Of a DNA stretch of 64,000 bases, positions 15,466 through 58,294 are shown piece by piece. The DNA is from Halorhabdus sp. BNX81 (GTDB lineage Archaea; Halobacteriota; Halobacteria; Halobacteriales; Haloarculaceae), in assembly GCF_029229925.1 (NCBI RefSeq), contig NZ_CP107254.1, positions 1,054,001 to 1,118,000 of the forward strand. The letters are read 5' to 3'. The notes beneath the pieces are model-generated. The model searched no databases. It was given only the letters and a program-made list of their open reading frames with translations, and was not told the DNA's origin. Within the stretch, counting starts at the first letter, position 1; each line of letters opens with the position of its first letter. A program made the position numbers and the translations under genes.

Positions 15466-16431
15466 TTACTCTTCGACGTCGAGCTCTTCGGCCAGTTCGT
15501 CGGCGTCGACGTCAGCGTCCTCCAGGGCGTCCTCGAGGTCGCCGCCACCGCCGCCCATGCCGGGCATCATGCCGCCCATGCCGCCCATCATGCCGCCGCC
15601 CTCGCCGAGGGTCTCCTGAACGATAACGCGATCGACGCCGAGCAGTTCGACGAACTGCTGGGCGATCTGCTGTTTCTGGAACATCCACTGCTGGTTCATC
15701 GAGAGCTGCGGCGTGGCCTCGATGTACAGCGTGTCCTTCTCGACTTCAACGGTCTCGGTGACCGGGCCGTCATCCTCGTCGTCCCCTTCCTCCGCAGCTT
15801 CTTCGAGGTCGTCGGCCTCCTCGACGATCTCCTCTTCCTCCTCGACGTCGGTCTCGAACCAGACGTCGAGGTCCATGCCGAGCATGGTGTCGAGCAGGCT
15901 CGATGCCTGTTCTTCGCGGTCGTCGACCGTGTCGAGGATCTCGTAGTCGTACTCGATGTCCTCGCCGGCCAGCGGGTGGTTGAAGTCGACGCGGGCCCGC
16001 CCGCCGATGATCGTCTCGACGTAGCCCTGTTCGCCATCGATGGTGACGGCCGCACCGGGATAGCGGTCGTCTTCCTCGATCTTGTTGGCGCTGATGGTCC
16101 GAACCTCCTCGTCGTCGTACTCGCCGAACGCGTCGGCAGCCGGGACGACGACGGATCCCTCGTCGCCTACTTCGCTGCCGACGATGTCGTCTTCGACGTC
16201 CGGGAAGATGTGGCCCTCGCCGAGGACGACCGTCCGTGGTTCGAACTCCTGGTCCTCGCCAACGCCCTCTTCGTCGGCGACTTCCTGGCTGGTCGTGTCG
16301 ACCAGGTCGCCCCCGTCGACGGTCCGGGCCGTGTAGGCGACTGTGACGAAGTCCCCGTCCTGGAGGCCGGTCGATTCGGCGTCGTGCTCAGCTTCGGTGT
16401 CGGCCTCGTCGGCCGCTGTATCGTCGCTCAT
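15466..16431 (-). CDS. FKBP-type peptidyl-prolyl isomerase, SlyD-like, with Met/Gly-rich tail
   Basis: The 321-residue protein starts with an acidic leader of about 20 residues, then an FKBP domain (DFVTVAYTARTVDGGDLVDTT, later EPRTVVLGEGHIFPDVEDDI) split by an insert-in-flap type domain with VDFNHPLAGEDIEYDYEI, as in SlyD. Such proteins isomerise proline bonds and act as chaperones. After a long Glu/Asp-rich linker there is an extra domain of about 80 residues, then a tail of Gly and Met (about residues 285-305) that resembles the GGM tails of chaperonins, then a last acidic helix. The tail is unusual for FKBPs. ATG at 16431 chosen; the reading frame continues upstream only as antisense of the CYTH gene. 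Confidence 0.82.
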   Translation of the reverse strand: MSDDTAADEADTEAEHDAESTGLQDGDFVTVAYTARTVDGGDLVDTTSQEVADEEGVGEDQEFEPRTVVLGEGHIFPDVEDDIVGSEVGDEGSVVVPAADAFGEYDDEEVRTISANKIEEDDRYPGAAVTIDGEQGYVETIIGGRARVDFNHPLAGEDIEYDYEILDTVDDREEQASSLLDTMLGMDLDVWFETDVEEEEEIVEEADDLEEAAEEGDDEDDGPVTETVEVEKDTLYIEATPQLSMNQQWMFQKQQIAQQFVELLGVDRVIVQETLGEGGGMMGGMGGMMPGMGGGGGDLEDALEDADVDADELAEELDVEE

Positions 16432-26456: not shown

Positions 26457-27098
26457 ATGAATCAACAACGAACAGACGCCCTGGTTGACGCCGTGTATGG
26501 GGCGTTAATTTTTGTTTCGGTTGTGCTGATTGTCGTCGTTGACAACGATGTGGGGATCGCGTTCGGCATCGGCGTGCTGGTATCGTACTTCGTTCACGTC
26601 GCCTGGAAGATGTCACAGTACGATCCGGAGTGGATGGTTTCGGCCGTCGAACAGACCGTCGAAGAGACAGTCGACGAGACGGTCGAAAAGCAAGTGGGTG
26701 ATACCGTCGAGTCCACCGTCAAGGAAACGGTCGACCAGCAAGTCGGCGAGACTGTCGAGGAAACGCTCGGCGAAACGGTCGGCGAGTCAGTCAACGAGAC
26801 CGTCGAGGAGACCGTCGAAGCAGCGGTCGACGAAACGGTCGGCGAATCGGTCGAAGAAACCGTCGAGGAGACCGTGGAAGAAACCGTCGGTGAAACCGTC
26901 GAAGAGACAGTCGAAGCGGCAGTCGACGAGTCGGTCGAAGAGACGGTTGGCAAGACAGTCGAGGAGAAAGTCGAGGAAACGGTCGAGAAAACGGTCGAGG
27001 AGAAAGTCGAGGAAACGGTCGAGGAGAAGGTCGACGAATCCGTCGTTGACACGGACGAAGACGACTCGGCCGACGGCTCGGATTCAAACGACAACTGA
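26457..27098 (+). CDS. two-helix membrane protein with 34 tandem tetrapeptide repeats
   Basis: The 213-residue product has two membrane helices (about 12-29 and 32-50), a short joint (KMSQYDPEWM), then residues 64-199 made only of four-residue units of the form V-E-E-T and variants (VEET, VDET, VGET, VEEK, VEAA). There are 34 units without a break, with Val at the first place in all but one. An acidic 14-residue tail closes it. I do not recognise a family. A strict period of four does not match a heptad coiled coil. The long helical or fibrous arm would face the cytoplasm or the outside depending on topology. The antisense frame also stays open, but that follows from the repeat and is not evidence for a gene. 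Confidence 0.75.
   Translation: MNQQRTDALVDAVYGALIFVSVVLIVVVDNDVGIAFGIGVLVSYFVHVAWKMSQYDPEWMVSAVEQTVEETVDETVEKQVGDTVESTVKETVDQQVGETVEETLGETVGESVNETVEETVEAAVDETVGESVEETVEETVEETVGETVEETVEAAVDESVEETVGKTVEEKVEETVEKTVEEKVEETVEEKVDESVVDTDEDDSADGSDSNDN
26646..27053 (+). repeat. 12-bp tandem coding repeat (34 units)
   Basis: The codons of the tetrapeptide array give a 12-base period, mostly of the form gtc-gaG/a-gag/gaa-aCg/acc. Units 15 and 23 both read VEAA and are followed by VDE, suggesting a past duplication of a block of about eight units (96 bases). Confidence 0.85.
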
Positions 27099-57301: not shown

Positions 57302-58294
57302 ATGGCATCGTATACGCGCCGAACCGTCCTGGGGTTCAGTGCGGCTGCAGTGGCTGGACTTGCGGGTTGTGGCGATGACACCGCTTCGTCGACGGATACG
57401 ACGACGGAACCGGGAGGGACTCCGACACCGACCCCGGAACCGACGCCGACTCCGGAACCGACACCGACAATGCCCTCGTCACTCGCAATCGAACACGTCC
57501 GGTTCTGTACGGAGCAGCCCACAGGCTACCGGCAGTACACCGAACAGCCCGCGGACACGTACGCACCAGGCGATGTCGTCTGGCTCTACCTCGAACCGTC
57601 CACTGTGGGAACGGAACCCGCTGGCGAGGGTGAACGTCGGTTCGCCTACGAACTGAACTGGACGATCTACACGCCGGACGGGGAAGCACTGGACACGATC
57701 ACTCGGACGGTCGAACGAACCGTCGTCGAATCGGCGGACTTCTCCGAGGTGTTTCTGGTACTCAACTTCTCGCCGTCGATGGCGTTCGAGCCGGGTTCCC
57801 ACCGCGTCGAGATCGACGTTCGGGACACGATCGCCGGCAACGAGGCTTCCGAGACGGCGACCTTCGACGTCGAACCCGCGCTGAAACAGGCCACCGAGTT
57901 CGAGGTTCCGGAGCTTGTGTTCACTGATGGGGAAGCCACAGGGTACGACGAGTACACGCCACAGCCCGACGCCGAGTACGGACCGACCGAGACCGTCTGG
58001 TACTACTACGAGATCCACGGGATGCACTACCGGGAGACCGAGGACACGATACGGACGAACGTCTCGATATTCGAGACCCTTACTGGTCCTGCGGGAAGCG
58101 TCTGGGCCGAAAACGAGATCCCGGTCAACAACGAATTCCCGGCGGACACAGACCCATCGATGCTGTATATCGCCGATCGGCTGTCTCCCGCTGAGCAATG
58201 GGATCCCGGCACCTACACGATCACGCTCGAAGTGACCGACGGCTACGTCGACGAGACGATCGAACGGACGGGGACGTTCACCGTCGTCGAGTGA
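57302..58294 (+). CDS. Tat-exported lipoprotein with a duplicated beta domain
   Basis: The 330-residue protein starts with a twin-arginine signal (TRRTVLGF), followed by a lipobox ending in Cys23 (GLAGC). A low-complexity Thr/Pro/Glu linker (about 35-58) leads to two related beta domains of about 125 residues: T74-GYRQYTEQP and VVWLYLE in the first, T213-GYDEYTPQP and TVWYYYE in the second. The repeat spacing is about 139 residues. It should be anchored to the outside of the membrane. No family name is recognised. An ATG at 57275 would add nine residues and spoil the signal. Confidence 0.75.
   Translation: MASYTRRTVLGFSAAAVAGLAGCGDDTASSTDTTTEPGGTPTPTPEPTPTPEPTPTMPSSLAIEHVRFCTEQPTGYRQYTEQPADTYAPGDVVWLYLEPSTVGTEPAGEGERRFAYELNWTIYTPDGEALDTITRTVERTVVESADFSEVFLVLNFSPSMAFEPGSHRVEIDVRDTIAGNEASETATFDVEPALKQATEFEVPELVFTDGEATGYDEYTPQPDAEYGPTETVWYYYEIHGMHYRETEDTIRTNVSIFETLTGPAGSVWAENEIPVNNEFPADTDPSMLYIADRLSPAEQWDPGTYTITLEVTDGYVDETIERTGTFTVVE

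Follow-up and report, generated by a model that had tools for sequence, protein, structure and literature searches.

The gene at positions 26457 to 27098 (plus strand) of the window, i.e., of the whole 64,000-nt stretch of Halorhabdus sp. BNX81 DNA analyzed here, belongs to a family of small membrane proteins in salt-loving archaea that has not been described before. The genomic partner of this family is a permease of the PiT superfamily. The initial annotation had overlooked both this partner and the spread of the family through the haloarchaea; the gene is not an orphan. Overall, a role connected with PiT is probable. We consider the chances evenly balanced that, more specifically, the protein is an accessory subunit, specific to haloarchaea, of a divergent anion permease of the PiT/CysP-like type, with a cytoplasmic acidic helix that forms a homo-oligomeric rod. 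Such a subunit would probably be of a regulatory or scaffolding type. The arm provides a natural, long test case in which a hydrophobic residue stands at exactly every fourth position, outside the published coiled-coil range, and a set of unnamed, haloarchaea-wide membrane proteins in two distant subfamilies is assigned to one branch of PiT/CysP-like permeases. Both the structure of the arm and the permease partner can be addressed directly in a haloarchaeon that is amenable to genetics.

A membrane hairpin followed by 34 period-four units

The open reading frame starts with ATG and encodes 213 amino acids; its coordinates and strand were exact as first noted. The features of the gene are the following.

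26457 to 27098, plus strand: complete gene (213 residues) for a membrane hairpin, a period-four arm and an acidic end
26463 to 26537, plus strand: transmembrane helix 1, residues 3 to 27, with conserved R5, D7, D11, Y14, G15 and I18 (AlphaFold2, conservation)
26544 to 26618, plus strand: transmembrane helix 2, residues 30 to 54, with invariant G33, G39, H47, W50, K51 and M52 (AlphaFold2, conservation)
26604 to 26636, plus strand: juxtamembrane signature WKMSQYDPEWM, with WKMARFDPxWM as the family consensus (all columns invariant or almost so)
26646 to 27053, plus strand: 34 consecutive V-x-x-x units, residues 64 to 199, predicted to be helical within 57 to 123 and 131 to 197
26814 to 26825, plus strand: VEAA unit, copy 1, residues 120 to 123, within the block that is duplicated in the G006 orthologue
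26910 to 26921, plus strand: VEAA unit, copy 2, residues 152 to 155
27054 to 27095, plus strand: acidic C-terminal end DEDDSADGSDSNDN, without the period (from the translation)

Recounting the array gave exactly the numbers of the initial annotation: residues 64 to 199 (136 residues) make up 34 units, with valine at the first position in 33 of them and leucine in one. The second position is mostly E (19 units), G (7) or D (5), the third is E in 24 units and the fourth is T in 23. When the residues were shuffled 100,000 times at constant composition, the number of valines in the best phase averaged 11.1 and never exceeded 18. Furthermore, a Fourier analysis of arm hydrophobicity peaked at exactly 90 degrees per residue and was near zero at 100 degrees, the value of an ordinary amphipathic alpha-helix. 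This agrees with the earlier statement that the period fits no heptad. The tail as a whole (residues 61 to 213) contains 57 D/E versus 7 K/R and has a net charge of -50 over 153 residues.

The window genome contains a single copy of the gene and one distant paralogue. The neighbors of the window gene are purD, a DUF302 gene and a convergent PIN-ATPase-KH gene, and among the other Halorhabdus members examined, this local context recurs in the two closest relatives (L156 and L157).

A family within the Halobacteriales

All 7 genomes of the genus contain the hairpin (residues 1 to 65), as do 72 of the 146 genomes of the host's taxonomic family and 250 of 392 Halobacteriales genomes. In a phylum-wide sample, none was found outside this order; every match lay inside it. 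At least 192 stretches on GTDB contigs encode the hairpin. The best 80 of these were used for the locus analyses, and they come from Natrialba, Natrinema, Haloarcula, Halosimplex, Halorientalis, Halorubrum, Halobellus, Halobacterium and other genera.

Conserved hairpin residues include Y14-G15, G33, A35-F36, G39, H47, W50-K51-M52 and D56-P57-x-W59-M60. The window protein bears the corresponding YG, AFGxG, HxxWKM and DPxWM motifs, and its tail has the strict four-residue hydrophobic spacing of the family, in which a few short members have only 4 to 7 units. Natural short members (L053, L063, L083, L106 and L117) show a few V-x-x-x units and then a heptad-spaced end, with a motif like ERIDRRPREDEIEELL. 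In most of the Halorubrum-like lineages, the period-four tract follows a heptad-like stretch with ERVDRRPR.

The suggestion that no described family has this layout held up in all searches. Pfam and NCBIfam scans of the window protein yielded only matches below the cut-off, mostly on the low-complexity arm; CdrL_M, DUF445, EcsC and others were rejected as the family for this reason. On the hairpin, Pfam gave nothing consistent. A sequence search of the PDB revealed no clearly related solved structure, Foldseek with the predicted model gave no match at E <= 0.001, and membership in a known family with a solved structure, which would have spoken against the suggestion, was not seen. A literature search on the repeat motif found nothing relevant. 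A viral origin was also rejected: a search of IMG/VR found no viral relatives, and the PHROG matches concern repeats and are confined to the arm (from residue 62 on).

Genomic linkage with PiT permeases

Among the best 80 of the at least 192 loci, there is one dominant neighbor. A PiT-superfamily permease lies near the gene in 55 of the 80 loci, across many genera, and the linked permease matches PF01384 (E = 9e-42). It is the next downstream gene on the same strand in 32 loci, overlapping by 1 to 10 nt in 21 of these, and the divergent upstream gene in 20 loci. Genes of the UspA family were found near the hairpin gene in 26 of the 80.

Since some PiT is present in 145 of the 146 genomes of the host's taxonomic family, the presence of a PiT as such is uninformative, and only the specific clade is informative. 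Of the 146 genomes, 27 have a PiT that shares at least 76% identity with the linked one, and all 27 carry the hairpin gene. For the wider PiT clade, 54 genomes have both, 3 have the PiT only, 18 have the gene only and 71 have neither (Fisher p = 1.9e-20; within-genus CMH chi-square 30). The three PiT-only genomes are incomplete (64 to 88%), and the 18 genomes without a close clade PiT are among 72 gene-positive genomes. The link to PiT is established by genomics at the level of the family; linkage does not prove binding.

A position next to a PiT is typical of the family, not universal, and the window copy is flanked by the DUF302 and PIN/KH ATPase genes instead. Neither subfamily gene adjoins a PiT in the window genome; the nearest PiT of the clade is found at another site (G000:C1:586317, 68% identity). 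PiT neighbors are also missing from Halorubrum and some Natrinema loci; in the Halorubrum-like L092, L104, L105, L107, L111 and L120, mostly an AstE/AspA-type gene is nearby instead. A recurrent cluster surrounds the hairpin gene in the Natrialbaceae (L057, L061, L062, L067, L081 and L089), comprising two PiTs, the hairpin gene, a UspA protein, a 618-aa multi-membrane permease, a ferredoxin-like protein and HisA.

The paralogue in the window genome (G000:C1:866107-866583; L003, L151) represents a second, distant subfamily. Its hairpin is homologous to that of the window protein (hhalign probability 92, E = 6e-7). Its tail is built of V and L with A, D, E and Q, not of V with E, G and T, and the spacing is again exactly four. 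Since the period is kept with different residues, a mere compositional or slippage effect is argued against. Outside Halorhabdus, the second subfamily is directly beside a PiT in 3 of the 3 genomes with strong matches (L148, L149 and L150); one pair overlaps by 4 nt and one is a tandem pair. Most sister-subfamily tails examined also have a strong period-2 Fourier component. For the window family, a beta structure was rejected, since AlphaFold2 gives only helix for it.

The linked permeases match the Thermotoga PiT (TmPiT, 6L85) but differ from it in the signature motifs, with GGSTTGPAFGPAVGA in place of GANDVANSMATAVGA and GTSNIANAVAPL in place of GANDVANAAGPV. In the PiTs of the clade (L048:6834-8012 and others), the GANDVAN signature is lost and replaced by GGSTTGPAF and GTSNIAN, and because of this replacement the substrate cannot be assumed. 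CysP sulfate permease was the only NCBIfam model that responded to the linked PiT, and the resemblance stays below the cut-off (156 of 400 bits). The linked PiT may carry phosphate or sulfate.

In bacterial Pit operons, DUF47/PhoU-like accessory proteins (PF01865) pair with PiT. Like them, the window protein is a small helical protein of a kind whose gene is linked to a PiT permease. However, DUF47/PhoU-like proteins are soluble PhoU-like bundles without a hairpin and without a sequence match to the window family, and a Pfam scan found no PF01865 match in the window protein. The Halorhabdus genomes have one PF01865 gene each, at a separate locus that is not near the hairpin gene. DUF47 was rejected as the linked partner; in the window genome, it is not near any PiT.

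Predicted structure of the arm and proposed function

Structure prediction, which had been proposed as a check, gave a long helix and not disorder, at moderate confidence. The AlphaFold2 monomer (mean pLDDT 67) consists of a hairpin of hydrophobic helices at residues 3 to 27 and 30 to 54, i.e., the two membrane helices first noted, and of helices at 57 to 123 and 131 to 197. Confidence in the arm is moderate, with block means of about 49 to 84, and the model is that of a monomer. For a short natural member, AlphaFold2 gave the same hairpin-plus-helix plan. The positive-inside pattern (R5 before the first helix, the acidic loop VDND and K51 after the second) suggests that both protein ends, and hence the arm, are cytoplasmic. 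The earlier description of a membrane-anchored arm stands in this respect, while the proposed stalk, which implied a surface structure, is disfavored by this pattern.

Every fourth residue of a helix with 100 degrees per residue drifts, by simple arithmetic, 40 degrees per unit, so that the valine stripe would circle the helix once in nine units. The accessible range of coiled coils is about 3.33 to 3.9 residues per turn and excludes 4.0; the natural extreme is 3.8, and the expected limit is about 3.9 (PMC4786415). The window arm departs from this canonical alpha-helical coiled-coil periodicity with 4.00 over 34 units. Because 4.0 lies outside the accessible range, the arm is either no coiled coil or one without a known precedent. 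Like the arm, right-handed coiled coils (hendecad 11/3, pentadecad 15/4 and YadA 19/5) have hydrophobic residues mostly four apart and a right-handed stripe drift, and they form long rods on membrane anchors, as is proposed for the arm, but they reach only 3.8 residues per turn. It is conceivable, though rather doubtful, that the arm forms a helical assembly of a novel type whose period is truly 4.0 and which is stabilized by molar KCl and serves as a scaffold for anion permeases. Just as tentatively, such an assembly might consist of strongly undertwisted or tightly right-handed helices or of a multi-helix lattice, where each valine stripe, as it spirals, would touch several neighbors.

In the accessory-subunit reading, the conserved two-helix hairpin would dock on the permease within the membrane, and the long acidic helix would extend from it into the cytoplasm. 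Identical arms of several subunits would join in register via the valine stripe to form a rod, and the arms could couple or cluster permeases. The physical complex with PiT, the cytoplasmic side, the homo-oligomeric rod and an effect on transport are what we infer.

The main rival to the rod is a monomeric, salt-sensitive PiT regulator, in which the charged-helix arm would act as a sensor of ionic strength or K+ or as an electrostatic regulator of the permease, without a valine-stripe oligomer. The same PiT linkage speaks for it, and the high negative charge of the tail, the UspA neighbors as a hint at regulation and a period that is awkward for a coiled coil are in line with it. Single alpha-helix (SAH) domains resemble the arm as long charged helices with i to i+4 regularity. 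However, SAH domains have balanced E and K/R (an i,i+4 E-K pattern) and no hydrophobic stripe, unlike the arm with its excess of D/E over K/R and Val at every fourth residue. A monomeric arm would also leave unexplained why Val is the most constrained position and how dozens of units stay in register, and we regard this explanation as unlikely.

To the same degree, we doubt that the PiT linkage reflects shared regulation only and that the protein serves as a general scaffold of the membrane or cytoplasm (e.g., of membrane domains) unrelated to transport. The missing PiT neighbor in the window genome and several lineages would fit such a role, as would the genes of other kinds that adjoin the Halorubrum loci; on the other hand, it does not account for the gene overlaps with PiT in many genera, the within-genus co-occurrence with one PiT clade and the independent PiT linkage of the second subfamily.

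The period is old and under selection

Repeat number, another check proposed earlier, indeed varies between relatives, with 34, 36 and 38 units in three Halorhabdus. The near-identical Halorhabdus orthologue G006 contains a clean extra 20-residue copy of exactly the VEAA-VDE block that had been suspected of growth by internal duplication, and it lacks one four-residue unit. We conclude that repeat units are still gained and lost. Between related tails, 397 of 503 indels are multiples of four residues, a proportion that is partly favored by alignment to a periodic sequence. For the accessory-subunit reading, a homo-oligomer would account for a very variable length combined with a rigid register: whole units could be freely gained or lost because all chains would change together, and single-residue slips would not be tolerated because one slip would break every later layer.

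Despite this variation in length, the period is kept throughout the family. In the tails of the members examined, the step from one hydrophobic residue to the next is four in 88% of cases, and members differ in their longest unbroken run, from 4 units up to 56. Among 71 members with at least 15 anchors, the period is exactly 4.00 in 26 and above 3.9 in 59; in Natrialbaceae members that occasionally have a three-residue step, it falls to as little as about 3.8. With a helix predicted and the period kept both family-wide and in the sister subfamily, plain disorder without conservation, which would have counted against the initial annotation, was not found.

At the DNA level, the 12-nt and 24-nt periods match by only about 67 to 69%. 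Since this match is so low and since codon use in the tail is that of the neighboring genes (V GTC, 81.3% versus 81.0%; E GAG, 66% versus 71%), i.e., at genomic equilibrium, the array is old. Anchor codons of related proteins show 24.6% synonymous versus 4.3% non-synonymous differences, and the other arm positions 34% versus 18%; the arm anchors are more constrained than the hairpin itself. In these figures, the compared pairs are not independent and the repeat alignment is uncertain. Because silent sites are equilibrated and the constraint is strongest on Val, the period is selected and not the product of fresh slippage. In the window arm, GTC is the codon of 30 of 33 valines before G, which equals the usage in the genome (85%, p = 0.47). 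Fresh DNA slippage or codon bias behind the period was rejected on the basis of this genomic GTC usage and the mixed Glu and Thr codons.

It is very unlikely that the tail is a disordered, low-complexity acidic sequence without a specific role, grown by slippage with the period as a by-product of 12-nt duplication, since the variable unit number, the freshly duplicated block in one orthologue and the fact that acidic low-complexity tails are common in haloarchaea are outweighed by equilibrated silent sites and a unit DNA identity of only about 70% with V kept in 33 of 34 units, by the rarity of non-synonymous anchor changes, by the same period from other residues in the sister subfamily and by the predicted helix.

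The 12-nt codon pattern of the sense gene also gives rise to an antisense open reading frame (window positions 26594 to 27094, minus strand; 166 aa), which is rich in V, S and T. It is probably an artefact, of a kind that gene finders could call. Further tandem repeats in the window are located at 15550 to 15597 (21-nt unit GCCGCCCATGCCGCCCATCAT) and at 57422 to 57468 (18-nt unit CCGACACCGACCCCGGAA).
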